NCBI GenBank assembly: GCA_016926315.1
Contig: JAFGOU010000314.1
Coordinates: forward strand, 1-17,320
Reading direction: 5' to 3'
Source: Chitinispirillaceae bacterium
GTDB lineage: Bacteria > Fibrobacterota > Chitinivibrionia > Chitinivibrionales > Chitinispirillaceae
Length of the DNA stretch: 17,320 nucleotides
How positions within the stretch are numbered: the first letter of the stretch is position 1; each line of letters starts with the position of its first letter. Both the position numbers and the translations under genes were made by a program. Under the pieces are notes generated by a model. The model was given only the letters and a program-made list of their open reading frames with translations, did no database searches and had not been told where the DNA came from. Below are positions 459-17,024 of this stretch, piece by piece.

Positions 459-487
459 ACCGGTAGCATGCTTTCTGACGGCAGGTT

Positions 488-509: not shown

Positions 510-514
510 CGCGT

Positions 515-1147: not shown

Positions 1148-1198
1148 GAGAAGCTGCGGAGCCATACGATGACCATTGCAAGGCTCCGCCGGCTCAGG
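1143..1198 (+). terminator. nested inverted repeat over the lexA stop codon
   Basis: CCTGAG (1143-1148, containing the lexA TGA) pairs with CTCAGG (1193-1198). Inside it, GCGGAGCC (1156-1163) pairs with GGCTCCGC (1182-1189) around an 18-nt loop. This makes a two-tier hairpin in the lexA 3' region. No T-run follows, so it may be an RNA-stabilising or Rho-assisted 3' end rather than an intrinsic terminator. Confidence 0.4.
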
Positions 1199-1222
1199 AC
1201 GTGCAATCAGGACGCCTGTTCC

Positions 1223-1244
1223 GGCATGGCCTGAAGGCCATGCC
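1223..1244. terminator. 9-bp perfect hairpin between convergent genes
   Basis: GGCATGGCC (1223-1231) and GGCCATGCC (1236-1244) form a perfect 9-bp stem with a TGAA tetraloop (TTCA on the other strand). It lies between lexA and the convergent small HTH gene, where a shared bidirectional terminator is expected. There is no U-tract on either strand, which weakens the terminator call. Confidence 0.45.
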
Positions 1245-1313
1245 ACATTCTTGGGATAAAAGAAGCTGGGTGAGACAACGATACGCTTTTTGAAATACCG
1301 CCCGTCCACCCGT

Positions 1314-1607
1314 TTATTTTTTCTTTGCTTTTTTGGAAGATCCCCCGGTTTCCTTGATGATCCGGTAGGTTTGCGGAAGGGAAAGTTGAAACTGCCGTGC
1401 GATCGTCTCGACCTTTTTTCCGGCTTTGCGGAGCGCCGAGATCTTCTTGTTGCGCAGCGGATTGGATGCCGTCCGGGAGTCGACGGCGTATTTTTTGCGG
1501 AGCTGATGGACCGCCTGGCGGGTGATGCCGAATTTCGCGCCGATCTTTGCGTCGGTTTTAAGGACCTTCTGCAGTTTGATCAATTCCTGTTTGGATATCC
1601 TTGCCAT
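1314..1607 (-). CDS. small basic protein with two helix-turn-helix motifs
   Basis: This 97-residue Lys/Arg-rich protein looks like a DNA-binding protein with two tandem homeodomain-like units. Unit 1 is about residues 7-40, with T-D-A-K-I-G-A-K-F-G-I-T-R-Q-A-V-H-Q-L-R as turn and recognition helix. Unit 2 is about residues 52-88, with K-V-E-T-I-A-R-Q-F-Q-L-S-L-P-Q-T-Y-R-I-I. The I-A-x-x-F-x-[IL]-[ST] pattern is that of resolvase/Hin-type and transposase-type HTHs, but no catalytic domain is present. The tail is SSKKAKKK. The start has a strong ribosome-binding site, AAAGGAG (plus-strand 1616-1622), 8 nt upstream. It stands alone, 151 nt downstream of the CNNM gene on the same strand and convergent with lexA. 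Target and role are unknown; an autonomous regulator or nucleoid protein is possible. Confidence 0.8.
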   Translation of the reverse strand: MARISKQELIKLQKVLKTDAKIGAKFGITRQAVHQLRKKYAVDSRTASNPLRNKKISALRKAGKKVETIARQFQLSLPQTYRIIKETGGSSKKAKKK

Positions 1608-1647
1608 ACGGCATGCTCCTTTAATGAGGGGTTGTGGAACGGACGGG

Positions 1648-1678
1648 AACTATGAGTTACGAGTCTTGTTCCATAGTT
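1648..1678. repeat. inverted repeat upstream of the small HTH gene
   Basis: AACTATG (1648-1654) and CATAGTT (1672-1678) are inverted 7-mers, 17 nt apart, 40-70 nt before the HTH gene start. A second short palindrome, CCGGA-TAA-TCCGG, lies at 1696-1708. These could be operator sites for the adjacent HTH protein. This is inferred from position only. Confidence 0.3.
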
Positions 1679-1758
1679 GACATCATGATCTTATTCCGGA
1701 TAATCCGGGGTAACCAAAATAGAATCGTGCGTAACGGAACGCAAGGAAAAAATTGCCT

Positions 1759-3012
1759 TTAGGGAGTCGCCCCCCTGCTTGGCGCGATCCGCTCGACGAT
1801 GACGTCGTAGACGTTGCCGCGCAAGACGCGGCGCACCCGCAGTGAAACCGCTCCCAGCCTTCGCGAAAAGCCCTCGATCGGTTCCTTCTCGCCCGCCTCT
1901 CGCTTGATCCATGAGTCAAGGGTAATGTCGTCGTCCACGGGAAGGTCGGGCAGCGCGCGGGTTTTCACCTGGCGGAAGGTCGAATGGCCGCCGACGCGGA
2001 AACGGTGCTCGGCAAGCTGCACGATGAAGTCCGGCGGCGTGTCGTATTCGTCGCGCAGGTCGCCGACCAGCGTTTCGATGACGTCCTCGAGCGTCACGAG
2101 GCCCCTGGTGCGGCCATGGTCGTCCTGAACGATGGCAATGTGCTGGTAGCCTCCCGTCAACTTTGCCAGGAGCTCGGTAAGGCCGGTCGATTCCTTGACA
2201 AAAACAACTGGCCGCGTAACCCCGCGGAGCGTCGGGTCGTTCGGGTTGGCATGGAGCGCACCGACAATGTCCTTGAAATTGACATATCCGACGATCCGGT
2301 CGATGTTGCCCTTGTCGGTCAGGGGAAACCGTGTATGGCGGTGGACATGCGATGCGAGCAGCCCGTCCTGGAGCGACATCCCGTTCGAAAGGAAGTTGAT
2401 GTCCTCCCGGTCGATCATCACGTCACGGGCGTGAAGCCTGGACATGAGCATGCTGCGGGAGATCAACCCCTCCTGCTCCCTGCTCAGAAGGTTTTCGCTG
2501 ACCGCGCTCCGGGCGAGCACGCCGATATCGCTTATCGCCGTTTCGGGACGCGAGCGTTTCCCGCCGCTGAAGGGATGATTGAGAATTTCCGTCATTTTTA
2601 TAAGCGGGCCGAAAACCCCGACGATGACGCTGAAAAGGGGCGCGGTCAGGCTGGCAAGCCGCCTGTTGTAGCGGACGCCGAGCGTTTTCGGCAGTATTTC
2701 GCACCATTGAATGAAGACGAGAGAAAAGAGAACCGAGAAAACGGGGAGCCAGCGGCTGCCGTACAGGTTGGAAAACTGGGCGCCGGCCAGCGCCGCGCCG
2801 ATGGTATTGGCAAAGGTGTTGATGATGAGAATGGTGGCCAGAGGCCGGTGGATATCCTTTTTAAAACGCTGCCAGATGCGGCGCAGGAGCGGTTTATGCT
2901 CGGATATCCGAGCGATGTCGGTGCTTGAGATACTGAGCAGGCACGCTTCCATGAGCGAACAGCCGAAGGAAAAACTCATGGCGACCGCAAGAATGACCAT
3001 CAGAGAAATCAT
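1759..3012 (-). CDS. CNNM/CBS/CorC-domain membrane protein (HlyC/CorC family, probable Mg2+/Co2+ transport)
   Basis: 417 residues. The N-terminal CNNM (DUF21) membrane domain spans about residues 1-150, with helices at 2-27, 58-80, 89-103 and 122-140. It has the conserved small-residue/Glu signature F-G-C-S-L-M-E-A-C-L-L-S and E-I-L-P-K-T-L-G at 105-112. A cytosolic CBS pair follows (about 197-320, ending in GLVTLEDVIETLVGDLRDE, typical of the second CBS). The C-terminal CorC_HlyC domain is at about 328-410 (FRVGGHSTFRQV...). Family members are Na+-coupled or ATP-responsive Mg2+ (Co2+) exporters in the inner membrane. The start at 3012 is preferred because AAAAGGAA lies a few nt upstream and the first transmembrane helix begins at once. 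The frame stays open to a GTG at 3180 without a ribosome-binding site, so a 56-residue extension is possible but less likely. Confidence 0.92.
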   Translation of the reverse strand: MISLMVILAVAMSFSFGCSLMEACLLSISSTDIARISEHKPLLRRIWQRFKKDIHRPLATILIINTFANTIGAALAGAQFSNLYGSRWLPVFSVLFSLVFIQWCEILPKTLGVRYNRRLASLTAPLFSVIVGVFGPLIKMTEILNHPFSGGKRSRPETAISDIGVLARSAVSENLLSREQEGLISRSMLMSRLHARDVMIDREDINFLSNGMSLQDGLLASHVHRHTRFPLTDKGNIDRIVGYVNFKDIVGALHANPNDPTLRGVTRPVVFVKESTGLTELLAKLTGGYQHIAIVQDDHGRTRGLVTLEDVIETLVGDLRDEYDTPPDFIVQLAEHRFRVGGHSTFRQVKTRALPDLPVDDDITLDSWIKREAGEKEPIEGFSRRLGAVSLRVRRVLRGNVYDVIVERIAPSRGATP

Positions 3013-3218
3013 GGGAAAATTCCTTTTGTTTAATACAATTCGGAACCGGGACAACAGAGCGCCGGCGGGTATGGATAAAAAATAGTTATGCGATGGTCGT
3101 TGAGAAAGTAAAAACGCGACAGAGAGGCGGTCGCCCGGACGGATAATTCGGGTTTCCGTTGTTATTGTGGTTTCCTGCACGGTAGGACCGGTAATTCTGT
3201 GGTAACGGCGAATCCGTC

Positions 3219-3235
3219 ATTATATCATATATAAT
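3219..3235. promoter_or_regulatory. AT palindrome giving -10 elements on both strands
   Basis: ATTATAT (3219-3225) and ATATAAT (3229-3235) are perfect inverted 7-mers around CAT. On the plus strand this gives TATAAT at 3230-3235, with a transcription start expected near 3242, just before the TPR operon; no good -35 is visible. On the minus strand it gives TGATATAAT (3227 down to 3219), a full extended -10, pointing towards the CNNM gene with a leader of about 200 nt. It is the most AT-rich stretch of this divergent intergenic region. I see nothing else firm in 3013-3262. Confidence 0.55.
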
Positions 3236-3262
3236 CAAACCGTTATGTGGAGGAACAACCTG

Positions 3263-3298
3263 ATGATACCGCAATCGTTGTACCTGGCGGCCTGGTGA
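3263..3298 (+). CDS. possible 11-residue leader peptide overlapping the TPR gene start
   Basis: The only good ribosome-binding site before the TPR gene, GGAGG (3249-3253), is 9 nt upstream of an ATG at 3263 in a different frame. That ATG opens a 12-codon frame, M-I-P-Q-S-L-Y-L-A-A-W-stop. Its TGA (3296-3298) overlaps the GTG start of the TPR gene (3295) as GTGA. This arrangement is typical of translational coupling. It could be a coupling or attenuator leader, or the overlap may be coincidence. No regulatory residue run is obvious. Confidence 0.4.
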   Translation: MIPQSLYLAAW

Positions 3299-5412
3299 AA
3301 AAAACGGCCCGATCGCTCATTTGTATTCTGCTCCTGTTGCCGCCGGGCATCCATGCCTCGCGTCTGAGCACGGCGGTATTTCCCCTTACCAATGAATCGG
3401 GCAGCGCATTGCATGACTGGATCGGTTATGGCATTTCAGAAACCCTGGCGAGGAAACTGCAGCAGATGGAGCGGTTTCAGGTCTGGGACCCGGTGTTTCT
3501 GTTCCAGACCGATTCCAGCGGCCGGGAAATGCTCGACGAGAACCTTTTGAAAATGCACCGTACCCGCTGGCAATGGGATGCCGCAATGGGCGGTTCCTAC
3601 CGTCTTCGCGGCGATACGCTCGCTGCGACGTTCCGCCTGGTCTGGGCCACGGGAAAGGAGGAGCCGCTTTCGGTTTCACTGCAGCTTTCGGGGCGGGTCG
3701 TCGATTTTTTTTCACTGACCGGCGAAGCGCTCCTTAAAATGTTTCACCTCATGCAGTACCGTCCCTCGCCGGCCGATTCGCAGATCATACGGGAACGTGC
3801 CTCCTGCGCCATGGACGCCTACCGGACGTACGCCGCCGGGTTCGGGTATGAAATGCGGGGCGATTACCACGCCGCGCTGACCGCCTACCTCCGCGCAACG
3901 GAGATCGACGCCCGTTTCGCCGCCGCCTCCTGCAGGGAGGCGATGCTCTATCGCACGGCGGCTGAATATACAAAAGCAAAAGAGGCGTTCGAAAGGGCGT
4001 TCGCCGCAGACCCGAACGATCCCGCAATCGCCGCCGGATACGCCGATTTTCTGGTCGACTGCCTTCCGCCCGCCATCGCGTTCAAATTTATCGGCAGCCA
4101 GCGTGCGCTGCTCGGGAAAAGCGCCGCGGGCATGAAAGCCATGGGCAAGATGTACATCGTCTCCGGCGAGTACCCGCGGGCGATCGCGATGCTTACCCGA
4201 GCGGTCGCTTTCGGCCCGTCTGATCTTGATGTCGCGTTTGCGCTCGGCACCGCCTATTCCACTGCCGGGGATTTTACCCGGGCGGCGGAAATATTCAACC
4301 AGCTCATCCAGTACCGTCCGTACCATGTTCGGTATTACGCATCGCTCGGCGGCGCGTACCGCAAGGCCGGCCGGCTCATGGAATCCACCATCGTGCTGGA
4401 ATCGGCGGAAAAAATCACGCCGGACAATACCATGGTCCTGGTCGACCTCGCCCACACGTATATCAGGCTCGGCTGGTATGAAAAGGCGGGACAACTTCTT
4501 CTGCGCGCACGCGAAATCGCGCCTTTCGTTAGTGATATCGGCACCAACCTCGGGGTGGTGTACTGGTACCAGGGAAAAAAGGCCGAAGCGCGGAAGTGTT
4601 TCGAAGAGGCCGCGCGCGCCCCCACGACCCGGCAGGCGGCTTTCAATAACCTGGGAAATGTGTTGTTCATGGACGGCTCACCGGGCAAGGCCATCGCTGC
4701 CTACAAGAAAGCCGATCAGGCAGGGCGTAAAAATGAGACCGTGCTCTACAACCTCGCTGCCGCCAGCCTCGCCCGCAACGACCGTAAGAAAGCCGCCGTG
4801 TATTTCGACGAGGTACTGCGGCTGATGCCCGACCGCCTCGATGTCCTGCTCCGGCAGGCGGAAATCGCGGCGTCTCTTAAACGAAGCGCCGCGGCTGAAG
4901 GGTACTACCGCCGCATTATCGAGCTCCTGCCCGACCATGAAGCGGCTCTCCGGGGACTCGTGCGGATACTTATGAGGCAAAAACGATACCGCGAGGCGGT
5001 CCAGCCGATTGAAGAGTATCTTTCCCGTCAACCGATGTCCCGGGAATTCATGCTGCTGCTCGCCGATGTGTATGTGAAAATGGCATGGCGTGAAGTCGCG
5101 CTCATGAAATACCAGGCGGTCGCCAGGGAATTTCCCGATGATTCGAGCGCCCATCTCGGCATCGGGACCTGCATGTATGCCCTGATCGCGGAAAAGGGAA
5201 TGACGAATTACGACGATGCGATACTCGCGCTCAAGAAAGCGAGCGATCATGCCGCGGGCAATCCTCTGCCGGACCAGCTTATCGGAGACCTGTACGCCGT
5301 ATACAAGGGGTACCGGGAGCTTGCGATTGACCACTGGAAAAAAGCGCTGGCACGCGCCGTCGATCCGAAGACGAGGAAACTGCTGCAACAAAGACTGGGA
5401 GGGAAGGGGTAA
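3295..5412 (+). CDS. exported TPR protein with TolB/FlgO-like N-terminal domain (operon gene 1)
   Basis: 705 residues from the GTG at 3295. This start gives a clean signal peptide (M-K-K-T-A-R, hydrophobic core LICILLLLPPG, cleavage after IHA at about residue 21). The frame is open to a GTG at 3247, but that codon has no ribosome-binding site and lies only a few nt from the predicted transcription start. Residues 22-150 resemble the TolB-N/FlgO type of domain that often precedes periplasmic TPRs: V-F-P-L-T-N-E-S-G-S-A, then W-I-G-Y-G-I-S-E-T-L-A-R-K-L, then RFQVWDP. From about 175 to 700 come about a dozen 34-residue tetratricopeptide repeats (for example YTKAKEAFERAFAADPNDP, YPRAIAMLTRAVAFGPSDL). 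TPR arrays are protein-interaction scaffolds, so an envelope assembly role is likely. The next gene starts 4 nt after the stop. Confidence 0.88.
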   Translation: MKKTARSLICILLLLPPGIHASRLSTAVFPLTNESGSALHDWIGYGISETLARKLQQMERFQVWDPVFLFQTDSSGREMLDENLLKMHRTRWQWDAAMGGSYRLRGDTLAATFRLVWATGKEEPLSVSLQLSGRVVDFFSLTGEALLKMFHLMQYRPSPADSQIIRERASCAMDAYRTYAAGFGYEMRGDYHAALTAYLRATEIDARFAAASCREAMLYRTAAEYTKAKEAFERAFAADPNDPAIAAGYADFLVDCLPPAIAFKFIGSQRALLGKSAAGMKAMGKMYIVSGEYPRAIAMLTRAVAFGPSDLDVAFALGTAYSTAGDFTRAAEIFNQLIQYRPYHVRYYASLGGAYRKAGRLMESTIVLESAEKITPDNTMVLVDLAHTYIRLGWYEKAGQLLLRAREIAPFVSDIGTNLGVVYWYQGKKAEARKCFEEAARAPTTRQAAFNNLGNVLFMDGSPGKAIAAYKKADQAGRKNETVLYNLAAASLARNDRKKAAVYFDEVLRLMPDRLDVLLRQAEIAASLKRSAAAEGYYRRIIELLPDHEAALRGLVRILMRQKRYREAVQPIEEYLSRQPMSREFMLLLADVYVKMAWREVALMKYQAVAREFPDDSSAHLGIGTCMYALIAEKGMTNYDDAILALKKASDHAAGNPLPDQLIGDLYAVYKGYRELAIDHWKKALARAVDPKTRKLLQQRLGGKG

Positions 5413-5416
5413 TATC

Positions 5417-8400
5417 GTGCGGACCGCCCGACAGGCAGCGTTATTTTCACGGCGTTCGCCGCTGATGGCGGCGGCGTTTGTCGTTGCGGCGTTCGCGCTT
5501 TCCTCCCCCGGCAGCGCCCCGCAGAAAAAGCCGGCCGCCATTCCACCGTGGCTTGACACCGTGCCGCCGATGGTCGAGATCCTTCCGGCGAAAACCTGGC
5601 ACTCCTCGATATTCATGATCACCCTTTCCGCCAACGAGCGGGCGCGGTTCTGGGTGGGCGTCAACAACCGGCGGGAGCTGGCCGAATACGTCAAGCCGAT
5701 CACCATGGCTCGCGACACCGCCATTACGGTCTATTATTACGGCGAGGACGATTACGGAAACCGGTCGCCGCTTGACTCCATGCGGTACGTGCTCGACCGG
5801 CGGCCGCCGCAGCTCCGGTTCATTCCCGAACCGGGATCGTATGAAAAAGGCGTGGTCGTTTATTTTGCCGCCGACAAACCGTGCCGTTTCGAGTACCTGA
5901 AGGATCCGACATCGACAAAAGGGAAAGCGGTTCCGGAATCGCTTGCGGTCGCCGGCGTGTTCGAAGGCCATGTCGCCGCGATCGACAGCGCCGGGAATCG
6001 CGTCGTTTCGCCGTTTTTCAGGTATATCGTCGATACAACCTCGATCCAGGTGTCGGTGCAGCCTGCCGGAGGGCTTTTCAGGGAGCAGCCAAAAATCGTT
6101 TTTGACGCTTCAAGGAACACGACCGTCTTTTTTACGTTCGATCCGCTCGCCCCTCCCGATCTGTTTTCGGAGTACCGCGGCGTCATTCGTCTGCCTCACG
6201 GCCTCAGCACCCTACGCTATTACGGGAAAAACGGTCCTGGCCGCCGGTCGGCCGTACAGCGCGAAAAGTTTATTCTCGATACCATCCCGCCCAGACTGCA
6301 GGTGCAGCCGGCCGACGGCGCCGCATTTGACCGCCTGTCGCTTTCAATAAAGGAACCCGGGGAAATACGGTATACGCTTGACGGATCGATCCCCGACAAA
6401 AAGAGCGCGCGGTACGAAAAGGAGATCGTCATTCCTCACAAGGGCATGTGCAGGCTCAGGGCGTTTGCGTGGGACGAGGCCGGCAACCGGTCAGACCTCC
6501 TGGAGTGGGATCGGAAATATGATTTTGCGCCGCCGCTGGTCGTCATGACGCCGGCGGGAGGGGTATTCACCAGAGCGCTGACCGCCTTTGTCTCCGTCAA
6601 TGAAAAGGCGGACATGTACTATACTATTGACGGTTCGGAACCCGGTACGGGATCGATCCTTTACAACAACGCCGGAATATCCATTTCACGCGAAGGTGCC
6701 ACCGTGGTACGGTATTTTGGCGTCGATGAGGCCGGAAACCGCAGCGAGGAGCATACGGTAACGTTCCTCCTCGACACCCGGCCGCCGCAGGTCAGGGTAA
6801 GGATCGAGGGGTCGCTGCTTCTTAAAAACTTCCAGGTACGGCTGACGGCCAACGAACCGTCGGTTATCTACTATGAAGTGGACGGAAAAAAACCAACGAC
6901 GGCCTCGCGCGTCTATTCCGCGCCCATTCCTCTCGAGAGCGGTCAGGCGCTCATGTACATGGCGCGCGATTCCGCCGGCAACGTCTCGAGCATCTACGAG
7001 ATGGACGAACTTAAAAAGCCCATGGTATCGCCGTCGCCCGAAGCCGGGATGTACAACCGCCGTGTGTCGGTGCGATTCGTGACGAACATAACCGGGATCG
7101 TCTATTGCCGCATGCCGCCGGACACGTCGTTCAGGCCGTTTCGCGATTCGATCGTCCTCAACAATGAGGGGTCGCACTCCATCGAGTATTATCTGGAGTC
7201 GCAGCAGGGGCTCAAAAGCCCGCTGCGGAGGAGCGAGTACTACCTTGACTGGACGCCGCCGCGTGTCGGGATCTCCGTAAAAAAAGGTTTTGCCGACTCG
7301 GTGTCGGTCTTTTTCGAATGCAGTGAAAACGCCTCGGTCTACTATACGACCGACGGCTCCAATCCGCTGTACAGCAGAAAAACCATGATCGCGGGCAATA
7401 AATTGACAATGGCAAGAGACCGCATCAGCCTGCTCCGCAGCGCGGAGGCGAAGCTTGCTTTTTATGCCGAGGACGCCGCTGGAAACCAGGGTGCGATGAC
7501 GGTCCTCGATGTTTTCAAGCCGCGGGTCATTCCCAACGTGCCGGCCGGCAGCGACCGGCTGTACGACCGCATACTGTCGGTCACCCTTAACACCTATGAT
7601 CAATCAACGATTTACTATGCGCGTCATGGTCGCCCGCCGACCGCCGACTCGGCGGTCTATGCCGTGCCGTTGACGCTGATCGCGTCCGATACGATCGTCG
7701 CGTTTGCCGTCGATGCGTCAGGCTTCAGGGGAGACCCTGATACGCTTGTCTACCTGATCGACCTGCCCCCGTCGGCACATTTCTCGGTGTCGCCGGACAC
7801 CATCTACGAGGGCGTCCAGGCCGTTTTTGACGCGTCGACAAGCGTGGACAAGGAACATCCCCTTTCACGGTTGACCTTCCGATGGGATTTCGACGGCGAC
7901 GGCCGTTTTGACGCCGGACCGTTCTCCGATCCGCGCATCGCCCATCGGTATGAAAAGCCGGGCAGCTACGAGCCGCTGCTTGAGGTGTCCGATCCGAATA
8001 AGCGGTCCGGCGTGCTTTCGCGAACCCTGCGGATTCATGAGCGCTGCCCGTCAGGGATGGTATCGGTGGTCGATACGGCCGGACGGAGTTTTTGCATTGA
8101 CCGTTACGAATGGCCCAATCGGCACGGCAGGCTTCCCCGCACCAGCGTATCGTGGGTCGAGGCCAAGATGGCCTGTATCGACGCGGGAAAACGGCTCTGT
8201 ACCCAGCAGGAGTGGGAAGCGGTCTGCCGTGCCGGACTCCCGTATGCCAAAAGCCGCGATCGGGAGGAACGGTGCCAGGGCGTGGCCAAGGGACCGGGAA
8301 GGGCGGGTTCAGGTAAAAAATGCGCCGGCGCCGGCGTGTACGACATGATCGGCAACGTCGGCGAGTGGGTCGAAGACCGCCGGGGCGACTATCCGTATGC

Positions 8401-8506
8401 AATGGGAGGGACCTGGCGTGATGGCCGGGACGCTCATTGCGGTCACCGCGTACCCGGCACCATTGCCACCCGCAGCGAGGACACCGGTTTCAGATGCTGC
8501 AAATGA
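5417..8506 (+). CDS. exported chitobiase-type Ig-repeat / PKD / SUMF1-like protein (operon gene 2)
   Basis: 1029 residues from a GTG at 5417, chosen because G-rich GGGAGGGAAGGGG precedes it and a signal segment follows (SPLMAAAFVVAAFALSS, about residues 14-30). About nine repeats of 80-90 residues fill 46-780. Each opens with a variant of LD-x-x-PP and most end in a D-x-A-G-N turn. Several carry the chitobiase C-terminal-domain signature YYT-[IT]-DGS-x-P (for example near 401). A PKD domain follows at 783-872 (FRWDFDGDG at 821-829). Residues 876-1029 are a compact SUMF1/FGE-like domain: FCIDRYEWPN, VSWVEAKMAC, GKRLCTQQEWEAVC, YDMIGNVGEWVED, GFRCC. It is only about 154 residues with 10 Cys. 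The region before the final GFRC has a single Cys (1008) where true formylglycine-generating enzymes have a C-x4-C pair. A structural or ligand-binding role is therefore more likely than FGly synthesis. Confidence 0.87.
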   Translation: MRTARQAALFSRRSPLMAAAFVVAAFALSSPGSAPQKKPAAIPPWLDTVPPMVEILPAKTWHSSIFMITLSANERARFWVGVNNRRELAEYVKPITMARDTAITVYYYGEDDYGNRSPLDSMRYVLDRRPPQLRFIPEPGSYEKGVVVYFAADKPCRFEYLKDPTSTKGKAVPESLAVAGVFEGHVAAIDSAGNRVVSPFFRYIVDTTSIQVSVQPAGGLFREQPKIVFDASRNTTVFFTFDPLAPPDLFSEYRGVIRLPHGLSTLRYYGKNGPGRRSAVQREKFILDTIPPRLQVQPADGAAFDRLSLSIKEPGEIRYTLDGSIPDKKSARYEKEIVIPHKGMCRLRAFAWDEAGNRSDLLEWDRKYDFAPPLVVMTPAGGVFTRALTAFVSVNEKADMYYTIDGSEPGTGSILYNNAGISISREGATVVRYFGVDEAGNRSEEHTVTFLLDTRPPQVRVRIEGSLLLKNFQVRLTANEPSVIYYEVDGKKPTTASRVYSAPIPLESGQALMYMARDSAGNVSSIYEMDELKKPMVSPSPEAGMYNRRVSVRFVTNITGIVYCRMPPDTSFRPFRDSIVLNNEGSHSIEYYLESQQGLKSPLRRSEYYLDWTPPRVGISVKKGFADSVSVFFECSENASVYYTTDGSNPLYSRKTMIAGNKLTMARDRISLLRSAEAKLAFYAEDAAGNQGAMTVLDVFKPRVIPNVPAGSDRLYDRILSVTLNTYDQSTIYYARHGRPPTADSAVYAVPLTLIASDTIVAFAVDASGFRGDPDTLVYLIDLPPSAHFSVSPDTIYEGVQAVFDASTSVDKEHPLSRLTFRWDFDGDGRFDAGPFSDPRIAHRYEKPGSYEPLLEVSDPNKRSGVLSRTLRIHERCPSGMVSVVDTAGRSFCIDRYEWPNRHGRLPRTSVSWVEAKMACIDAGKRLCTQQEWEAVCRAGLPYAKSRDREERCQGVAKGPGRAGSGKKCAGAGVYDMIGNVGEWVEDRRGDYPYAMGGTWRDGRDAHCGHRVPGTIATRSEDTGFRCCK

Positions 8507-11500
8507 GCATACAAACGACGCTGCTTCTTGCATGGTTCGCCGTCGCCGTTCCGGCAGAGAGGGTGGATTGGCTGCTCAAGGACGCGTTCGAAGAGGAGTT
8601 CATTGCCCTGAGCGAAGTATCGGTCGTTACGCCGGCCCAGGTGCGTTACGCACTGGAACAGTACGAGGCCGGCAATTACCGAAAGTCCATCGAGGTGCTC
8701 GAAAAAGTCAGGGCGCTGAAGCTTCCCGATGGAAGGCTCGATTTTACCTCTTTCGTTCTCGGCGAATCGTACCGGCAAAACGGCTCGATCGGACTTGCGC
8801 GGCAGGAGTATTCTTTTGTCGTAACAACGTTTCCCCTGAGCGATAAAACGCCGGCGGCATACTACCGGCTGCTTGAATTCGCCGTCAGGGAGGACGACAT
8901 CGAAAAAGCCGACGATGTCCATGCGCTCTTCAAAAAACATTTTGCGGCGCATCCGCTGCACAATGCGGTGAAGTATCAGTATGCCGTGCTGTTTTACCGG
9001 CGCAGCGAATATGAAAAAGCCGCGGAAGTGCTGGGCGGCATCGGAGAAAAGTCGGCCCGCTATCTCCAGTCAAGATTCCTGCTCGCACTGTGTCAGCTTC
9101 AACTCGGTGATTACACCGGAGCGCTGCTTTCGCTCGAACAGGTGAGAAAGAACGGGCCGAAAGGGGAGATGGTCAACGAGGCGGTCATTCTGATCGGGGA
9201 TTGCTATTTCATGGAGGGGAACCCGGCCGCCGCCCTCGGTTTTTACGAACAGGTCCCGAAGGACGCCCGGCGGCATCATTACGCATTAGTCAAGGCAGCC
9301 CGGACCCGCATCGACCTCGGCCGAAACAAGGAAGCGATGAAAATGTCGAAATCGTTTCTCGAACGCAACCGGAAAAGCCGGTACTACTTTGAAATGGCTT
9401 CGGTACTCGAACAGGCCTATTCCAAAATGGGCAGGGACGACGATGCGCGGAAAATCGGCACGCTCATTCACCGCCAGATCATGGACGCCCGCCTTGGGTT
9501 CGAGATATACCAGGAAATCGACAACGTCAACGACCTGATGCGTTCGTGGCTGGAGATCGAGCACCAGGCGATACGCCGGGGGAACAGGACTTTCCAGGAC
9601 CGCGCCGCCGCTGAAATGGAACGTTTGCACACGCTTGAGAAGCAGTTGTATGCCCTTCTGAAGAGCGTCGTTCCGGCAGGGGCCGCCGGAAGCGGGGAAA
9701 CCGTGCCGTATCATGCCGAGCGCCGTTATCTCGCACTGTTGAAGGCCCGGATGTCGATGTATGACGATACCCTTGCGGCGGCGCAGAAGCACTTCGAGTC
9801 GGTCATGGCGCTCCTTAAAGACAACCCGGCCGATACCGCGGTCCTGCTCCGCGCCGACAGCCTTTCGCGCTGCATCGATACGGTCAAACAGCACCGCCGT
9901 CGTTACGCGGACGAGTGCGACCTGGTCCTCTCGGTATGCATCGGCAGCAACGACGGCGCCCGTGAGGCCGACGAGGACCTCCAGGCAAAGTTTGTCGATT
10001 GGGCATTTATCAAGTACCAGGAAAAGAAGGACGAACTGCGGAAAATCAATCTGGAACTTTCGGAGCGGAAAAGGGCCGCTGCGCAGGGACAGGACGGTGC
10101 TGAACCGGGAATGCGCAAGGAAAGCGATGCCGGCGGAAAAGAGCGGCGTGTGCCTGCTGAAGAGGACCGCATACGCCAATCGCGTCTGATACTCGAGGAA
10201 CGGCTGCGACTCACGGAACATATCAAGACCATTATCGACGTGTATCCGAGGGGCGCCTACACGCCCGCGATCCTGTTCCGGTTGGCGGAACTTTATTTCG
10301 ACGCCGCGGGCGACGATTTCCAGGATCGGCTCAGGGCCTACGAACAGCGGATGGCGGAAGGAAAGGATTCCGCCGGCGCTGAATTTCCCGAGTACCGGCT
10401 CGACAGCGTCATCGCGACCTACGACCGGATCATTGACGTTTTTCCCTACAGCGACGTCGCCGACGGCGCCCATTTCTACAAGGCGCTCGCCCTGCAGAAA
10501 ATGGGAAAGGAGGAGGAGGGGAATGCTGTTTTGCTTTCCCTTATCAGGAAATATCCCGAAAGCCGCTATTACGTCGAGGCAAACATGATCATCGGCAGAT
10601 ACTATTTCGACCATCCCAAGGTTGAAAAGGGGCAGGGATACAAACTTGCCGAGGACGCCTACCGCAGGGTGCTCTATTTCCGCAAACATCCTGAATATGT
10701 CTCGGCGCTGTACCATCTCGGCTGGTGCTACTACATGCAGGACCGTTACGATGAAGCTATCGCGGTATTCAAATACCTGATTGAAGAAGCCAGCCTGGAC
10801 TTCGATCCTTCCCGCAAGGACGAGAAACAGATCGCCAATCCGCTGCTGCGCGGCGAGGCGATCGATTACATCGCCATCAGCTTTGATGCAAAAAACAAAG
10901 TGGACGAGGCGATCCAGTTTCTGAAACTTGTCGGCAACCAGGACTATGCCGCCCTGGTGCTCAAGCGCATCGGAGAGCTGCGCGAGGAGGATCTCGATTT
11001 CGCGACCGCCATTTCCGTGTACCGCCGCCTCCTGGCCGAATACCCGAAAAGCCGCGACGCTCCCCTGGCCTGCGTCTCGCTCATCCGCCTGTATGACAGC
11101 CGCGACCGGCATGATTCGGCCATGGTCCTTCGCGAGGAGTTTTTTTCTCGGTATGCGCAGGGCGGCGAATGGCAGGACGCGGCGGCCGGGAAAGACACCG
11201 TTTTCGCGCGATCCGTCGATTCAATGGCAATTGTCAATGGACTGTACGTTGCCGACGAGTCGTACCGCAGGGCCGAGGTGACCAGGGACCGCGATGCGTA
11301 TGCCGCCGCGGCCGGCAATTACCGGCGGCTGGTCGAGCGCTACCGGGGCGATCCCCGTGTGGTCGAGGCGCACTGGAATCTTGCGGTGCTTCTCGACGCG
11401 AAGCTCAACGACAAGCCGCAGGCATTCGACCGGTACAAGGCGTTCAGCAGGCTTGAAAACGTGGAGCGGCCCCGTCGCGAGCAGGCGGCGCTGAACGCGG

Positions 11501-14373
11501 TCGGTATTGCCCAGGCTCTCCTGCCGGAGGATTCCGCGGTCACGCCGGGCACGGTCGATTTTGCCGCCGCCAAGGTCGTTGAGGCGGTGGAAAATTATAC
11601 GAAGCAGTTCCCCGACGGCACCGCGTGGGGCAAGGTCATGCTCGGTCTCGGCGCCATTTATTTCAACCGCCACCTGTTCACAAACGCGGCGAAATTATAC
11701 GGTCAGATCATAGCGAAAGGTGCAAAAAACGCCGACTATTTCGAGGCGCTGGCGTATCTCGGTCAATGCCATTTCGGGGAGGAAAACTGGCCGGCGGCCA
11801 TAACCGCGTTTGAAAAGGTGATCAGGGAATCGGGAGATGACGCACGGAAGGACGCCGCGAAAAAAATGCTCCTGCAGGCCGAGTTCCTGAACGCAAAGCG
11901 GTTTTTCGGCGCCGACGACTTTGCCGCCGCGGCAACACTTTTCAGGGCAATTGACGACAAGCATCCCGGCAGCGAATACGGCGACGTGGCGTTGTTCAAT
12001 GCCGCCGAAGCGCACGAGCGGCTCAAGCAGTGGGATAAGGCGTGCGACCGCTATGTGGATATTGTCAAGAGATATCCCTTGTCGAAACTGGTCCCCGACG
12101 CCCTTCTGAACGCCGCCGGCGATTACGAGAAAATAAACAAATACGACAAGGCGGCCGACGCCTACGAAAAACTCGCCGCCGATTACGCATGGTCCGACAA
12201 GGCGAAAGACGCGCTCTTCAATGTGGGATTTTGCTATGAAAAACTCGGTAAGCCCGAAAAGATGGCCGATGCAAACGAACGCTATTCGGCGAGGTATCCC
12301 GGTGAAAAGGACGTCGAGGCGATGCTTCTCCGCTCCGCCGCCTTTTACATGAAAGCCTCCATGTGGGACCGTGCGCTGTCGGTCTACCGTAATTTCGTCA
12401 GGAGGTATCCGCACAATCCGAAGTCAATCGAAGCGTATTTCATGATCGCGAAATGTTCGTACGACCAGGGTGACAAGGTCAACGCCCTGCTGGGATTCAA
12501 CCAGGCGGAACAGCAGAACCAGAATCTGGCGAAGCAAAACAGTGAAACCAACAACTATTACGCCGCGGAGGCCGCCTACCATTCGGGACTGATCCAGCGC
12601 GAAAAAATGCTTTCAGTAAAGCTTAAGCTTCCCGAAGAAGTCCTTAAAACGGCGCTCAAGGAAAAGTCCGACCTGCTTGCCGATGCCGTGAAAGCGTTTC
12701 AGCGGGTGATGCAGTACCGGAGCGAGCGCATGTTTGAAGCCGCATTCCGGGTGGGGGAGCTCTATGAAGATCTCGCCATGGCATGGAAAGACCAGGAGCG
12801 GCCGTCGCTCGACCCGATCAACGCCGCGGTGCGTGAAAAAGAGATCCTGAGCCTGTCAGCGGCACTGCTGCAGAAGTCTTTCATTCCTTATGAAAAAGCC
12901 CTCGAACTCGCCCGGGGTTTGGACTCGCTCGGCACCGAGCAGCGGGGCTGGGTTGAAAAGGCGGAAAAAGGGTTTAAAAAGAACATGAACGAAGCCGGCT
13001 TTCTCATGAAAGAGGCGGTAAGCTCCATGAGCAGCGCCCCGGTGCCGAAAGAGATCCGCGACAAGCCGCTGCATTTTTTCCAGTACCAGAAACAGCTTCT
13101 GGAGGCGCTCACCCCCATGCGGGAACAGGTCCGAGACTATTTCGCCGGCGTCCTCTCCCTGAGCGATTCATTCGGGCTCAAGGGAGCGGAGATCGACTCG
13201 TGCAGGTCTGATTTCGCCAAAGCCAATTTCTCGATCGGCGACGGATTCGACCGCCTGTCGTCCCTCATTCTGCGCAATGCAAAGGAAGTCGCCAAAGATC
13301 TGCCGCAGGAAGAGCGGGAGGACCTCCTTTTTCAGCTCGAAGACATTGTGTTCGAGTTGCAGGACAAGGCCATATTTGCCTATGAGGACGGGTTGAAAGC
13401 GATCGGAAAACGGGGTCTACAGGAGAACCGCTGGGCAAAGCAGATCGTGGGCAACCTTGCGCGCCTGAGTCCGGATAAATACGGATCGGCCTATTTCGTC
13501 AAGGCCGTTGCGGTGTCGAACGGCACCTGGATCGCGCGGTCCGACAGCGTAGAAGGCTGGTGCGGCGCGTCGCCGCCGCAGACCGGATGGCAGCTTGCCG
13601 ATACCGTCTCTCCGCGCCAGGCGCAGGGGTTCAACGACGGCTCGCCGCGGTATATCGGAGCGGTTGGCGACGCCCCGGCCTGCTTCCTGTGGAAATTTCT
13701 CTTTCTGTCCGGAGCGCCCCGCAGCGCGGCACTGTACGTTTCGACACCCGACCGGTACCGTTTTTTCGTCAATGGCTCGCTTGTCCTGAGCGACAGCATC
13801 GGCTCCGGCAAGCACGACCGGATTGACAGCGCCGCAGGCATCGTGAGCATGCTGCACGGCGGCGACAATACGCTCTGTGCGGAGATGGCCGCGGCCGGAG
13901 ACGAGCCACCGCGCATTGCCGTGGTGTTCAGCGCAATGATCGACACCTCGGAGCGCTATGCCTCCTCGGTGAAGCTTCCACCCCCGCTTGCGGGCATGAA
14001 ACTGGAGGGAACCGCGCTGCAGGGCCGTGAAGCCGGCGCGCCGGCGGTGCGAAGCGGCCGCAGGACCGTGGCCGACAGCACGATGCGTGAGGCGGCTTCG
14101 AATGCCGCTCGCTACCGTACCGCCGGCGAACTGCACATGGCCATCGACAATTATTATGCCCGCGAGGCGAAAATCGCACGCGAGATAAAAAAAGAACGGA
14201 TCGAGATACAGCGGATGAGAATGGAAAACGACAGCCTCGGCGGGCGGCTGCGGCAGGTGCGTGCGGAAATCGATTCCCTCAGGGCGAAAAAGGGGACGAC
14301 CGGGATCGATTCCGCGGCCGCACGGCAGACGCCCCCGCCGTCTGATTCCGGCAAAGGAACCGGAGACCGGTGA
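8503..14373 (+). CDS. giant exported TPR protein with galactose-binding-like domain (operon gene 3)
   Basis: 1956 residues. The ATG at 8503 overlaps the previous stop as ATGA and gives a good signal peptide (MSIQTTLLLAWFAVAVPA, then ERVDW). The protein is mostly TPR or TolA-binding/BamD-like helical repeats at about 35-370 and 570-1370, with many A-x-x-x-Y-[RK]-x-[IVL] and Y-P-x-[S]-x-[YDL] repeat ends (YPRGAYTPAILFRLAELYFD, RYPLSKLVPDALLNAAGDYE). A highly charged coiled-coil-like linker lies at about 505-575. Residues 1370-1670 are helical but not clearly TPR. Residues 1673-1813 form a beta-rich unit like the galactose-binding domain of rhamnosidase N-termini (W-K-F-L-F-L-x7-A-A-L-Y-V-S, YRFFVNGSLVLSD, LHGGDNTLCAEM). 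A coiled coil at about 1885-1930 and a Ser/Thr/Pro-rich tail end the protein. It has no transmembrane anchor apart from the signal. It is likely a periplasmic or outer-membrane scaffold; gliding-type TPR proteins are a loose analogy. Confidence 0.87.
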   Translation: MSIQTTLLLAWFAVAVPAERVDWLLKDAFEEEFIALSEVSVVTPAQVRYALEQYEAGNYRKSIEVLEKVRALKLPDGRLDFTSFVLGESYRQNGSIGLARQEYSFVVTTFPLSDKTPAAYYRLLEFAVREDDIEKADDVHALFKKHFAAHPLHNAVKYQYAVLFYRRSEYEKAAEVLGGIGEKSARYLQSRFLLALCQLQLGDYTGALLSLEQVRKNGPKGEMVNEAVILIGDCYFMEGNPAAALGFYEQVPKDARRHHYALVKAARTRIDLGRNKEAMKMSKSFLERNRKSRYYFEMASVLEQAYSKMGRDDDARKIGTLIHRQIMDARLGFEIYQEIDNVNDLMRSWLEIEHQAIRRGNRTFQDRAAAEMERLHTLEKQLYALLKSVVPAGAAGSGETVPYHAERRYLALLKARMSMYDDTLAAAQKHFESVMALLKDNPADTAVLLRADSLSRCIDTVKQHRRRYADECDLVLSVCIGSNDGAREADEDLQAKFVDWAFIKYQEKKDELRKINLELSERKRAAAQGQDGAEPGMRKESDAGGKERRVPAEEDRIRQSRLILEERLRLTEHIKTIIDVYPRGAYTPAILFRLAELYFDAAGDDFQDRLRAYEQRMAEGKDSAGAEFPEYRLDSVIATYDRIIDVFPYSDVADGAHFYKALALQKMGKEEEGNAVLLSLIRKYPESRYYVEANMIIGRYYFDHPKVEKGQGYKLAEDAYRRVLYFRKHPEYVSALYHLGWCYYMQDRYDEAIAVFKYLIEEASLDFDPSRKDEKQIANPLLRGEAIDYIAISFDAKNKVDEAIQFLKLVGNQDYAALVLKRIGELREEDLDFATAISVYRRLLAEYPKSRDAPLACVSLIRLYDSRDRHDSAMVLREEFFSRYAQGGEWQDAAAGKDTVFARSVDSMAIVNGLYVADESYRRAEVTRDRDAYAAAAGNYRRLVERYRGDPRVVEAHWNLAVLLDAKLNDKPQAFDRYKAFSRLENVERPRREQAALNAVGIAQALLPEDSAVTPGTVDFAAAKVVEAVENYTKQFPDGTAWGKVMLGLGAIYFNRHLFTNAAKLYGQIIAKGAKNADYFEALAYLGQCHFGEENWPAAITAFEKVIRESGDDARKDAAKKMLLQAEFLNAKRFFGADDFAAAATLFRAIDDKHPGSEYGDVALFNAAEAHERLKQWDKACDRYVDIVKRYPLSKLVPDALLNAAGDYEKINKYDKAADAYEKLAADYAWSDKAKDALFNVGFCYEKLGKPEKMADANERYSARYPGEKDVEAMLLRSAAFYMKASMWDRALSVYRNFVRRYPHNPKSIEAYFMIAKCSYDQGDKVNALLGFNQAEQQNQNLAKQNSETNNYYAAEAAYHSGLIQREKMLSVKLKLPEEVLKTALKEKSDLLADAVKAFQRVMQYRSERMFEAAFRVGELYEDLAMAWKDQERPSLDPINAAVREKEILSLSAALLQKSFIPYEKALELARGLDSLGTEQRGWVEKAEKGFKKNMNEAGFLMKEAVSSMSSAPVPKEIRDKPLHFFQYQKQLLEALTPMREQVRDYFAGVLSLSDSFGLKGAEIDSCRSDFAKANFSIGDGFDRLSSLILRNAKEVAKDLPQEEREDLLFQLEDIVFELQDKAIFAYEDGLKAIGKRGLQENRWAKQIVGNLARLSPDKYGSAYFVKAVAVSNGTWIARSDSVEGWCGASPPQTGWQLADTVSPRQAQGFNDGSPRYIGAVGDAPACFLWKFLFLSGAPRSAALYVSTPDRYRFFVNGSLVLSDSIGSGKHDRIDSAAGIVSMLHGGDNTLCAEMAAAGDEPPRIAVVFSAMIDTSERYASSVKLPPPLAGMKLEGTALQGREAGAPAVRSGRRTVADSTMREAASNAARYRTAGELHMAIDNYYAREAKIAREIKKERIEIQRMRMENDSLGGRLRQVRAEIDSLRAKKGTTGIDSAAARQTPPPSDSGKGTGDR

Positions 14374-14385
14374 AGCGTCCTGCCG

Positions 14386-15750
14386 TCACTTCCTGAAAAA
14401 CTCGTCGTAGAGAGCGTTGACCGCCTTTCCCTCTTCGTCAACATCAATCCCGAAGATCATGCTGATCTCGGAGCTTCCCTGGTTGGCGATTTTTATATTG
14501 ACACCCGTCTTCGAGAGCGCCGTGGCCGCAGCGGCAAGCACACCGATCTTGTGGATCAGCCCTTCACCCACCACCGCGACAAGCGCGATGCCGAATTCGG
14601 TGCGGATCTCGTCGGGTTTGAGCTCCTCCTCGATTGCGCGTATGACCGTATTGGCCATTTCGAGCTTGAGCTGCGATTGGTCGAGAATCACCGAAATGCT
14701 GTCGACGCCCGACGGACAGTGCTCGTAGGAGAGATCGAGCTCCTCAAAGATCGAAAGCAGGCGCCTGCCGAAGCCTTTTTCCCGGTTCATGAGGAATTTT
14801 TCAAGCGTAAAACTGCAATATCCCCCGCCCGAGGCGATACCGACCACGTCACGTTCGCTCGGAAGCCGTTCCGATACGATGAGCGTCCCGGGATTGGCGG
14901 TGTTCATGGTATTGCGGAGCCTGATCGGTATTTTTTTGCGCAGGACCGGTTTGACCGCCTCCTCATGGAGTACGTTGAAACCGACGTAGGAAAGCTCGCG
15001 CATCTCTTTGTAGGTGAGCGCCGGAATAAGTTCGGGATTTTTGACCATGGTCGGATGGGCGCTGAAAATGCCGTCGACATCGGTCCAGTTTTCATATTCA
15101 ATCGCATCCAGCGCTTCGGCAAGTAGTGATCCCGTCAGGTCGGAACCGCCGCGGCTGAAGGTGGCGACATCCCCCTCGGCGGTGAAACCGAAGAAGCCCG
15201 GGAACACCACGATTTTTTCTTCGCACAACTTTTTAAGCTTTGAAAGGTGCCGCGCAGCCTCGGGGAGCGGCTGGGCGTCGCCGAAGTTCGGTGTGACCAG
15301 AAGGCCGGCATCTTTCGGCGACCGATACACCGCATCGATGCCGACGGTTTTCAGGTATTCGGCAAAAAGCTGGCAGTTGAGGTCTTCACCCGCAGCGACC
15401 ATGAGGTCACGGTATTTTCCCGGATGCGCGATCGATGTCCTGCGGCGACGGTCGAGGTCGGCAAGAATCTCGTCGATGCGGGCGGCGGGAACCTTGAGCG
15501 GGTCGTAAATCGCGTGAAAGCGCTCCTTGAGTTCCCTGATTTCGGCGGAGCAGTTTTTCCGCAGCAGTGATTTATTGACGATCGCAATCAGCGTGTCGGT
15601 GACCTTCACCGGGCAGTCCGGACCTTTCCCCGGCGCCGAGAGCACGAAACAGCGCCGACGCGGGTCCATCCGGAGTATGGTGACAATCTGCTGGAGCTTC
15701 CCGCTGGTGGTGACCGAACTTCCTCCGAATTTACAGACGATACAGCTCAT
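14386..15750 (-). CDS. aspartate kinase (monofunctional, two C-terminal ACT domains)
   Basis: Phosphorylates aspartate to 4-aspartyl phosphate, the entry step to lysine, threonine, methionine and diaminopimelate. 454 residues, normal for a single-function enzyme. The amino-acid kinase domain (1-290) shows K-F-G-G-S-S at 7-12, the substrate loop F-S-R-G-G-S-D-L-T-G at 198-207, and W-T-D-V-D-G-I-F-S-A-H-P at 222-233. ACT domains lie at about 310-375 and 388-454 (V-G-V-L-A-A-A-A-T-A-L-S-K-T-G-V-N-I near 403-419), suggesting feedback inhibition by an end product. The ATG overlaps the upstream araC-type stop as ATGA, with AGGAG inside that gene's last codons as its ribosome-binding site, so the two are translationally coupled. 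It converges with the TPR operon with only 12 nt between stop codons. The paralogue (lysC, thrA, yclM-like) cannot be fixed from sequence alone. Confidence 0.94.
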   Translation of the reverse strand: MSCIVCKFGGSSVTTSGKLQQIVTILRMDPRRRCFVLSAPGKGPDCPVKVTDTLIAIVNKSLLRKNCSAEIRELKERFHAIYDPLKVPAARIDEILADLDRRRRTSIAHPGKYRDLMVAAGEDLNCQLFAEYLKTVGIDAVYRSPKDAGLLVTPNFGDAQPLPEAARHLSKLKKLCEEKIVVFPGFFGFTAEGDVATFSRGGSDLTGSLLAEALDAIEYENWTDVDGIFSAHPTMVKNPELIPALTYKEMRELSYVGFNVLHEEAVKPVLRKKIPIRLRNTMNTANPGTLIVSERLPSERDVVGIASGGGYCSFTLEKFLMNREKGFGRRLLSIFEELDLSYEHCPSGVDSISVILDQSQLKLEMANTVIRAIEEELKPDEIRTEFGIALVAVVGEGLIHKIGVLAAAATALSKTGVNIKIANQGSSEISMIFGIDVDEEGKAVNALYDEFFRK

Positions 15751-16736
15751 GACGGCTCCTTGCGTGGTGGATGCGCCGGCGCCGCGCGTGAGAGGCGCCG
15801 GTAATCCGTCGGCGACCTGTTTTCCCGGTGTTTGAAGGCGCGGGAGAACGAATTGGCGTTCGGATATCCTGTTTGCGCCGCGATGTCCGCTACCGGCGAG
15901 CCGGTCGTTTCCAGAAGGTGTTTCGCCCGTTCGAGACGGACGGTCACCAGGTAATCGTACAGCGTAACGCCGGTTTCTTTTTTAAAAAGTATGTTAAGAT
16001 AATTTATGTCCACGCCGCATTCGCGTTCAAGATCGCCCTGGCGGCAGACACGGGAGTAGTTGCACTCCATGAACGCCTGCGCCTTGGCCACAAGGCTTTT
16101 TTGTTTGTTTTTTGGAAACTGCGATTCCCTGATATGGACAAGCCCTTTTGCAAAAAGGACGGCGAGCAGTTCCAGGAAGCGGGAGGCGGTGGCGAGCTCC
16201 CGGTCGATTCCGTTCCGGGAGCGCACCAGAAAAAGGTCGAAAATGAGGTTGTCAACAACGGTACGGTCATTTCCCTCGAGAATGGTCTTTCCTTCGACAA
16301 CCGAATTCCAGTAGCATTTCGCCCCTGCTGCCGGCAGGAGCGAGAATCGCAGAAGAAAGGATTCAAAGACGCCTTTCTGGTGCAGGTAGCTATACCGCTG
16401 CCCGCGTTCCATGATGCCGAGAAGTCCCGGTCGCGCTGTTCCAAAAACATTCCGGGTGGTGTTCTGCAGGATCCCGTATCCGTCGACCTGATACCAGAGA
16501 GTGTAGGAGTCCTGGTGGAACCGGAGGGGGATGGGCTGGTGCTCTCCGCGGGTCAACGAATACTCCAGGTAATCAACCCCCCTGATTTCAATGCGCAGCT
16601 TCGGGATTTCGACCACCGGGAACTCGCTCCAGCCCGTCATGCAGGAAAACGTTCTGATCGCTTCCTGATATGATGGATGGGGAATGAACACCGGATCGGT
16701 AAACCGGCTTAACAGTTCGTGGCGGTCATGCAACAT
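15747..16736 (-). CDS. AraC-family transcriptional regulator
   Basis: 329 residues. The C-terminal AraC/XylS DNA-binding domain (about 214-318) has two HTHs. The first is at about 234-254 (GDLERECGVDINYLNILFKK). The second is at about 281-303 (VADIAAQTGYPNANSFSRAFKH), followed by the family signature ENRSPTDYRR. The N-terminal 200 residues form an effector or dimerisation region with cupin-like strands (LRFHQDSYTLWYQVDGYGIL) but no identifiable ligand. The ATG at 16736 has no good ribosome-binding site (ACCCCA precedes it), but no better Met occurs before residue 33 and the frame is closed upstream. It overlaps aspartate kinase by 4 nt, so the pair is one operon. It is transcribed divergently from the sigma gene, with overlapping promoters. 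A regulator of this class coupled to an amino-acid-biosynthesis gene is unusual. Confidence 0.92.
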   Translation of the reverse strand: MLHDRHELLSRFTDPVFIPHPSYQEAIRTFSCMTGWSEFPVVEIPKLRIEIRGVDYLEYSLTRGEHQPIPLRFHQDSYTLWYQVDGYGILQNTTRNVFGTARPGLLGIMERGQRYSYLHQKGVFESFLLRFSLLPAAGAKCYWNSVVEGKTILEGNDRTVVDNLIFDLFLVRSRNGIDRELATASRFLELLAVLFAKGLVHIRESQFPKNKQKSLVAKAQAFMECNYSRVCRQGDLERECGVDINYLNILFKKETGVTLYDYLVTVRLERAKHLLETTGSPVADIAAQTGYPNANSFSRAFKHRENRSPTDYRRLSRAAPAHPPRKEPS

Positions 16737-16769
16737 TGGGGTAAAATAGTTTATTTAACGATAAATACT

Positions 16770-16787
16770 TTGAAAATCCTTGAAAAT
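16770..16787. repeat. tandem TTGAAAAT pair in the divergent promoter region
   Basis: TTGAAAAT occurs at 16770-16777 and again at 16780-16787, a 10-nt (one helical turn) spacing. The first copy supplies the -35 of the plus-strand promoter and the second overlaps the minus-strand -10. Direct repeats at one- or two-turn spacing are the usual layout of AraC-family sites, so this could be the autoregulatory operator. Confidence 0.4.
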
Positions 16788-16798
16788 TATAGTATATT
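16770..16798 (+). promoter_or_regulatory. sigma-gene promoter (-35 TTGAAA, 17 nt, -10 TATATT)
   Basis: TTGAAA (16770-16775) and TATATT (16793-16798) are 17 nt apart, giving a transcription start near 16805 and a leader of about 220 nt before the sigma ATG. It overlaps the divergent araC-type promoter, so the two are probably mutually exclusive. Confidence 0.6.
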
Positions 16799-16815
16799 AA
16801 GAAAATTCTTTTTAA
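16786..16815 (-). promoter_or_regulatory. araC/aspartate-kinase promoter (TTAAAA, 18 nt, TATAAT)
   Basis: On the minus strand a perfect TATAAT occupies 16791 down to 16786 with TTAAAA at 16815-16810, 18 nt away. The expected start is near 16779, about 43 nt before the regulator's ATG. The -35 is a weak match (4 of 6). The site overlaps the plus-strand sigma promoter. Confidence 0.55.
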
Positions 16816-16961: not shown

Positions 16962-17024
16962 GTAAAAGAAACAGGCAGACGTTATCCTGCTCCAGGCATC
17001 AAAAAACATCTCCTGACGGGAATT

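Follow-up and report, generated by a model that had tools for sequence, protein, structure and literature searches.

What do three long, consecutive genes, here named A, B and C, contribute to the cell envelope of the Chitinispirillaceae bacterium that carries them (assembly GCA_016926315.1)? They lie on the forward strand of contig JAFGOU010000314.1, positions 1-17,320, a stretch of 17,320 bases with a GC content of about 0.58 that is referred to here as the window. A preliminary description of the window had proposed that the genes form an operon for an uncharacterised envelope machine, which it could not match to a named system. Our analysis partly supports that interpretation and does suggest a match: C is GltD-like, the candidate motor is Agl/Glt- and Tol-like, and A-B-C probably makes up the periplasmic and outer-membrane half of a trans-envelope machine that is driven by protons and is of Agl/Glt and Tol type. 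The genes and the junction of B with C were placed as follows.

3295..5412, forward strand: gene A, exported tetratricopeptide repeat (TPR) protein of 705 amino acids; open reading frame (ORF) of 705 codons with a GTG start
5417..8506, forward strand: gene B, exported immunoglobulin (Ig)-stalk protein of 1029 amino acids; ORF of 1029 codons with a GTG start
8494/8503..14373, forward strand: gene C, exported giant TPR protein, GltD-like, of 1956-1959 amino acids; ORF, with TPR/YbgF/BamD matches and hhalign alignments
8494..8506, forward strand: 13 nt shared by the B terminus and the probable start of C (M-L-Q), read by eye in the window and 17 loci

The ORFs of 705, 1029 and 1956 codons and the 4-nt gap between A and B stand as first described. 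The ATGA overlap of B with C, given by the 1956-codon ORF from position 8503, probably does not: the true start of C is probably 8494, which gives 1959 codons and a 13-nt overlap, because the window and 17/17 homologous junctions, printed and read by eye, all keep a start codon 13 nt from where B ends, with Leu-Gln/Arg as the next residues. A stricter scripted pattern flagged 10 of the 17, and conservation of the ...RCCK terminus of B imposes part of this agreement. The N-termini of all three products are signal-peptide-like by simple hydropathy and regular expressions (not SignalP), in agreement with the export signals noted earlier, and a regular-expression search found no lipobox in the window proteins. 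The operon is confirmed as real and not a product of chance, since its ORFs belong to full-length protein families at 33-76% identity.

We then surveyed 167 Fibrobacterota genomes, searched genome by genome, and found C in 23 (E <= 1e-70), B in 21 (E <= 1e-60) and A in 17 (E <= 1e-40); a contig scan for B gave at least four near-full-length loci. Of the 21 genomes with both B and C, 20 have the two genes in the same order on one strand of one contig, and 16 of the 17 genomes that bear A have it upstream of B. The genes were found on different contigs only in G005 (B and C) and G039 (A, on a 3.2-kb contig); in G044 C alone was found, filling a 5.8-kb contig, and in G157 C is split into two ORFs of 568 and 1438 amino acids. 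Most genes flanking A-B-C vary between loci. Full-length relatives, among those listed, are 33-76% identical for B, 37-68% for C and 39-76% for A; those with a named source come from assemblies of Chitinivibrionales, Chitinispirillaceae or 'Fibrobacter sp.', beyond which similarity falls sharply. A-B-C is a fixed, lineage-bound module of Fibrobacterota. This synteny supports the single envelope complex of the preliminary description, and none of the names listed for close homologues carried an unrelated assigned function.

C gave TPR/YbgF/CpoB/BamD-type matches, and hhalign aligned it with large TPR proteins of two motor operons that occur in the same genomes as A-B-C. In the first, Set I, a TPR protein (1213-1247 amino acids) is followed by TolQ and two ExbD-like proteins (L091, L094 and L097), with a GltG-like TonB protein in L091; L094 is cut before that point. 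The Set I TPR protein is present in 141/167 genomes (E <= 1e-60), and the operon resembles the GltD/AglRQS/GltG core complex of Myxococcus. Set II comprises two TPR proteins, a and b (about 1160 and 1000 amino acids), a small secreted protein, TolQ and ExbD-like proteins (L095, L096 and partly L098), as well as a GltG-like protein, polysaccharide-export-like genes and, in L095, a STAS-like protein; the ExbD, STAS and export names come partly from sequence reading. The Set II operon (L095, L096, L098) may itself be an Nfs-like polymer transporter. The counterparts within C are these.

9022..11523, forward strand: C residues 174-1007, corresponding to Set II TPR protein a (score 339 over 770 hhalign columns)
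10249..13473, forward strand: C residues 583-1657, corresponding to the Set I GltD-like protein (score 524 over 967 hhalign columns)
11533..13947, forward strand: C residues 1011-1815, corresponding to Set II TPR protein b (score 564 over 794 hhalign columns)

C is colinear with the Set I protein and with Set II a plus b, and looks as if it had been fused from the two Set II proteins. The score was 120 for A in the same comparison, and 37 and 22 for two further large ORFs from these loci. Two ORFs labelled as TPR controls in it, taken without a Pfam check, are weak controls. The galactose-binding-like fold formerly attributed to C drew no Pfam match.

Partners of the ExbB/TolQ/ExbD and TonB types, which had been suggested as neighbours worth seeking, lie directly behind B-C in the outgroup genome G170, where B is 35% and C 31% identical. 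On one strand are encoded B, C, a small secreted-looking protein (102 amino acids), TolQ (255), a TolQ-ExbD fusion (430), ExbD (172), a GltG-like TonB protein (341), a PilZ-like protein, an ORF of 151 codons and a secA-like gene. Elsewhere the motor is a co-occurring locus: a TolQ/ExbB listing for 16 C-positive genomes found in most of them a TolQ plus TolQ-ExbD pair at a locus of its own (counts for TolQ/ExbB, the fusion, SprA and the sorting domains considered below are among the matches listed). Fifteen such regions were fetched from 14 genomes, and 8/15 hold the complete order of small protein, TolQ, fusion, ExbD and GltG-like protein, the others being cut or having one gene outside the ORF list. 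The GltG-like protein scored 80-122 bits against NF033760 (cut-off 650), with the first approximately 320 model positions unmatched; myxo_SS_tail (NF033768) was above cut-off in G170 and in 6/6 others scanned. As in G170, a secA-like gene follows the motor operon, with PilZ-like and small ORFs between, in 13/15 regions (L134-L144, L146 and L148), the other two being 3-kb contigs; SecA and PilZ were confirmed by Pfam at one locus each.

The TolQ-ExbD fusion (E <= 2e-80) occurs in 20/23 C-positive versus 0/144 C-negative genomes (Fisher p 5e-23, a value that ignores kinship), two of the matches being partial (G041 and G044). Of the 20 genomes with the fusion, 19 encode it at a locus apart from A-B-C. 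A tree quickly built from 45 Set I proteins, which omits the C-positive G012 and G157 and most of the 144 C-negative genomes, requires six changes for C and seven for the motor; among six independent pairs the motor follows C in 5.2 on average and the opposite never occurs. The relatives G024 and G026, whose Set I protein is 70-73% identical to that of G001, are without both C and the fusion.

Pfam matches to TPRs were found in A, and its full-length AlphaFold2 model had a pLDDT of 90.2. Because a structure search with this model returned TPR-type and other helical-repeat complexes, among 50 matches listed, the N-terminal domain was modelled by itself and gave one further feature.

3352..3780, forward strand: TolB D1-like domain, A residues 20-162; N-terminal domain modelled alone

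As modelled, A combines a TolB-D1-like domain with TPRs. This fold, taken with the YbgF/CpoB/BamD-type TPRs of C, would also suit a static scaffold at the outer membrane and peptidoglycan, a motor-free tether of the Tol-Pal/CpoB kind. We regard such a scaffold as quite improbable, given the tight co-occurrence with the motor and its linkage in G170, and given that neither an OmpA/Pal peptidoglycan-binding domain nor a TolB propeller was among the Pfam matches of A, B and C.

Three regions were distinguished in B.

5537..7765, forward strand: about nine CHB_HEX_C_1 (chitobiase-C/Fn3-associated) Ig-like modules, B residues 41-783; PF13290
7766..8038, forward strand: PKD domain, B residues 784-874 (approximately); PF18911/PF00801 and PDB 2c26
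8045..8503, forward strand: Cys-rich FGE/SUMF1-like domain, B residues 877-1029; PF03781 above cut-off

PF13290 matched with 198 bits and five passing stretches in Pfam, the count of about nine modules having been made by eye from D-x-x-P-P repeats. TPR, chitobiase-type Ig and PKD modules had been named at the outset; the statement that no product has an obvious classical enzyme domain is not supported, as PF03781 (FGE-sulfatase/SUMF1) matches B residues 903-1027 with 38.0 bits (cut-off 23.3). The nearest PDB relatives of this domain are SUMF2 and SUMF1, and nine cysteines of B are invariant in 19/19 aligned proteins. The domain is probably non-catalytic. In our own reading of a weak phmmer alignment, the conserved Cys 1008 may lie off the catalytic cysteine pair of FGE. 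An anti-phage role was also considered, on one weak PADLOC match (DUF499, 22.7 bits) in the Ig region of B that was judged spurious.

The Ig/CHB_HEX and PKD modules of B might instead point to a surface carbohydrate-binding complex that attaches cells to cellulose or chitin, its link to a motor being coincidental. CHB_HEX modules are generic Ig folds; no carbohydrate-binding family was among the Pfam matches of A, B and C; and simple binding leaves the motor co-occurrence and the homology of C unexplained. We consider it very unlikely, even though chitin and cellulose degraders have been isolated from the group and one of these isolates attaches to chitin (PMC4814513, PMC11700989).

In a further alternative, A-B-C would supplement or replace a component of the type IX secretion system (T9SS), with B as a FGE hub like PorK, GldK or GldJ and C as a TPR bridge to SprA like PorW or SprE. 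In PorK the FGE-like fold serves as a docking hub and not as an enzyme (PMC12421860), and PorW, a TPR protein, forms a bridge to Sov (PMC8754138). T9SS families were searched in 17 of the 23 C-positive genomes. All 17 have SprA (16 above cut-off) and T9SS sorting domains (a model that also matched 2/14 control genomes), and none has GldM (PF12080), for which the control matched 2/3 Bacteroidota genomes; the T9SS motor of these genomes, which have SprA but no GldM, may differ or be too diverged. In G157 (L124 and L128) SprA and A-B-C lie on one contig, about 11 kb apart, and in three of the five SprA regions read a short FGE-domain protein with conserved cysteines common to B adjoins SprA. This protein has 377-386 amino acids and an N-terminal hydrophobic segment (L129 12889-14049, L130 7213-8346 and L131 13734-14891); on the far side of its gene are RNase G/E-like and L21-like genes, named from sequence reading.

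Against a T9SS assignment, SprA is found in 158/167 Fibrobacterota (E <= 1e-6) versus 23/167 for C, and G024, G026, G013 and G014, relatives without C, are among the genomes that have it; as SprA occurs where C is missing, the T9SS runs without A-B-C, which is therefore no required part of it. B gave no match to GldJ or GldK, and in NCBIfam, which we take to include GldJ and GldK models, its FGE part matched only EgtB (20.7 bits). Against the PorW/SprE model NF052312 C scored 49.2 and A 23 of 250 bits, the Set I GltD-like protein scoring higher (60.5), and the neighbours of B-C in G170 are of TolQ/ExbD/GltG type and not T9SS genes. On balance we think the T9SS reading, which would leave A-B-C an accessory role, unlikely.

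The trans-envelope machine that we favour would share parts with several described systems. The Agl/Glt core complex (GltD, E, G and C with AglR, Q and S; Luciano et al., 2011, PMC3169522) also has a large GltD-type periplasmic TPR scaffold and, like the candidate motor here, TolQ with two ExbD-type proteins and a GltG-like TonB transducer, in an operon-like order comparable to that of G170; it was reported in one member of the Fibrobacteres, with an additional gene in versions outside Myxococcales and Bdellovibrionales (PMC3169522). In the present system, by contrast, there are two copies of TolQ, one of them joined to ExbD, the first approximately 320 GltG model positions have no equivalent in the GltG-like protein, no GltE or GltC match was above cut-off in what was scanned, A (TolB-D1 and TPR) and B (Ig, PKD and FGE) are partners of its own, and the motor is encoded apart in most genomes. 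For such separation there is precedent in the modular Agl motor, which works with interchangeable Glt or Nfs complexes from genes of their own, the latter transporting spore coat (Wartel et al., 2013, PMC3858216); unlike Nfs, a single cluster of eight gltA-H homologues, A-B-C has three genes and a Glt-type counterpart for C only. Tol-Pal shares the TolQ/TolR-type motor, the TolA/TonB-like transducer, the TolB D1 fold of A and the CpoB/YbgF-type TPRs of C, and differs in that A, B and C gave no TolB propeller or Pal/OmpA match and include giant TPR and Ig/FGE partners. With PorK/GldK/GldJ and PorW/SprE of the T9SS there is in common a FGE-like fold outside catalysis and a TPR protein as bridge; in the T9SS case no family match was above cut-off and the translocon gene occurs without A-B-C.

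Two further comparisons concern motors with TPR partners. FSU_2400-2403 of Fibrobacter succinogenes, an ExbB/ExbD/ExbD/TonB operon, is raised on cellulose together with the nearby-numbered TPR proteins FSU_2397 and FSU_2398, and its authors propose cellodextrin uptake (PMC6851124); from the gene names its content is like Set I, of which it would be a paralogue, and not like A-B-C. TolQR-like motors beside vWA force transducers, recently described, likewise combine a TolQ-type set with an uncharacterised TPR partner, the transducer there being vWA and not GltG/TonB-like (PMC12204202); the main text of that paper contains neither the term GltG nor the term Fibrobacter.

A number of observations weigh against our interpretation. 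B-C is linked to the motor in G170 only, where A was not found at E <= 1e-40, and the motor is known from related genomes alone and is unproven in the window organism. The fusion was not found in the C-positive genomes G010, G012 and G025 (a partial similar TolQ is present in G025); in L139 and L148 the best match of the GltG-like protein is the Set II GltG; and the sign test on the quick tree is borderline (median p 0.0625). Absences of motor or C are also soft, as genome completeness is not given and they may be gaps. C is called GltD-like for its likeness to the Set I and Set II proteins, and its hhalign scores are unspecific for motor-linked proteins, because four TPR proteins whose gene context is unplaced (P0219, P0222, P0223 and P0224) score 349-541. 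The GltE model NF033758 gave A 24.1 of 225 bits, far under the cut-off, and A has no lipobox; on this basis A is not GltE. General scans for GltC, which did not include a genome-wide search, gave no match in B or C and none among the 25 of 28 A matches listed; a Set I gene matched weakly (35.9 of 450 bits). With A not GltE, GltC not seen and a cis-encoded motor in one genome only, A-B-C is not assigned as a member of Agl/Glt.

If A-B-C is the envelope half of such a machine, its inner-membrane motor would consist of TolQ, the TolQ-ExbD fusion and ExbD, with the GltG-like TonB protein as transducer, encoded in most carriers in a second operon with the small secreted protein and the PilZ-like protein. 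Proton flow through the TolQ/ExbD stators would move the transducer, whose TonB/TolA-like tip could engage periplasmic receptors, the candidates being the TolB-D1-like domain of A and the TPR scaffold of C. TolA meets TolB in the Tol system, which offers a model for the meeting of the tip with A. C, a long scaffold presumably assembled with A, would hand the force to B, whose Ig stalk would bear the FGE-like domain as a non-catalytic docking head, and a surface polymer, an adhesin or a polysaccharide-degrading complex would thereby be moved or anchored. The PilZ-like protein suggests that cyclic di-GMP may control the motor. An envelope complex is thus retained from the preliminary description, and of the roles it offered, gliding, adhesion and secretion, the data do not tell one from another; as a first guess we suggest polymer or adhesin handling on insoluble polysaccharide, because of the F. 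succinogenes cellulose response (PMC6851124) and because Chitinispirillum attaches to chitin (PMC4814513).

Around the operon, A-B-C is flanked by unrelated genes on the other strand: a CNNM-type gene upstream (1759-3180) and an aspartate kinase gene downstream (14386-15750). The CNNM-type gene is divergent from A, and lies upstream of A in the same divergent way in the relative G011 (L111 1757-2998); the window protein has weak GldE similarity (113 bits of 376). A sigma-70-like gene, named from sequence reading, starts at the right window edge (16719-17320).

No paper among the open-access matches listed was recognised as describing A-B-C or the operon of the TolQ-ExbD fusion. We tentatively propose, as an idea that could well prove wrong, that they represent an undescribed machine class of the Chitinivibrionia type, with a stator of TolQ, fusion and ExbD, PilZ control, a GltG-like transducer, A as coupler, C as fused scaffold and B as docking stalk, which, on insoluble substrates, would move or anchor polymers of the surface or complexes that degrade polysaccharides. 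A Glt-like core complex of gammaproteobacteria was described by Luciano et al. as of unknown function (PMC3169522), and A-B-C with its likely motor would be a further branch of this Glt-like class, one with a fused stator and a FGE-headed partner, found in a phylum with cellulose and chitin degraders among its members. A-B-C would link building blocks of the Tol, Glt and T9SS types, and the gene set of A, B, C, the small protein, TolQ, TolQ-ExbD, ExbD, the GltG-like protein and the PilZ-like protein would provide a handle on how these bacteria may exert force at their surface or hold enzymes and polymers there.

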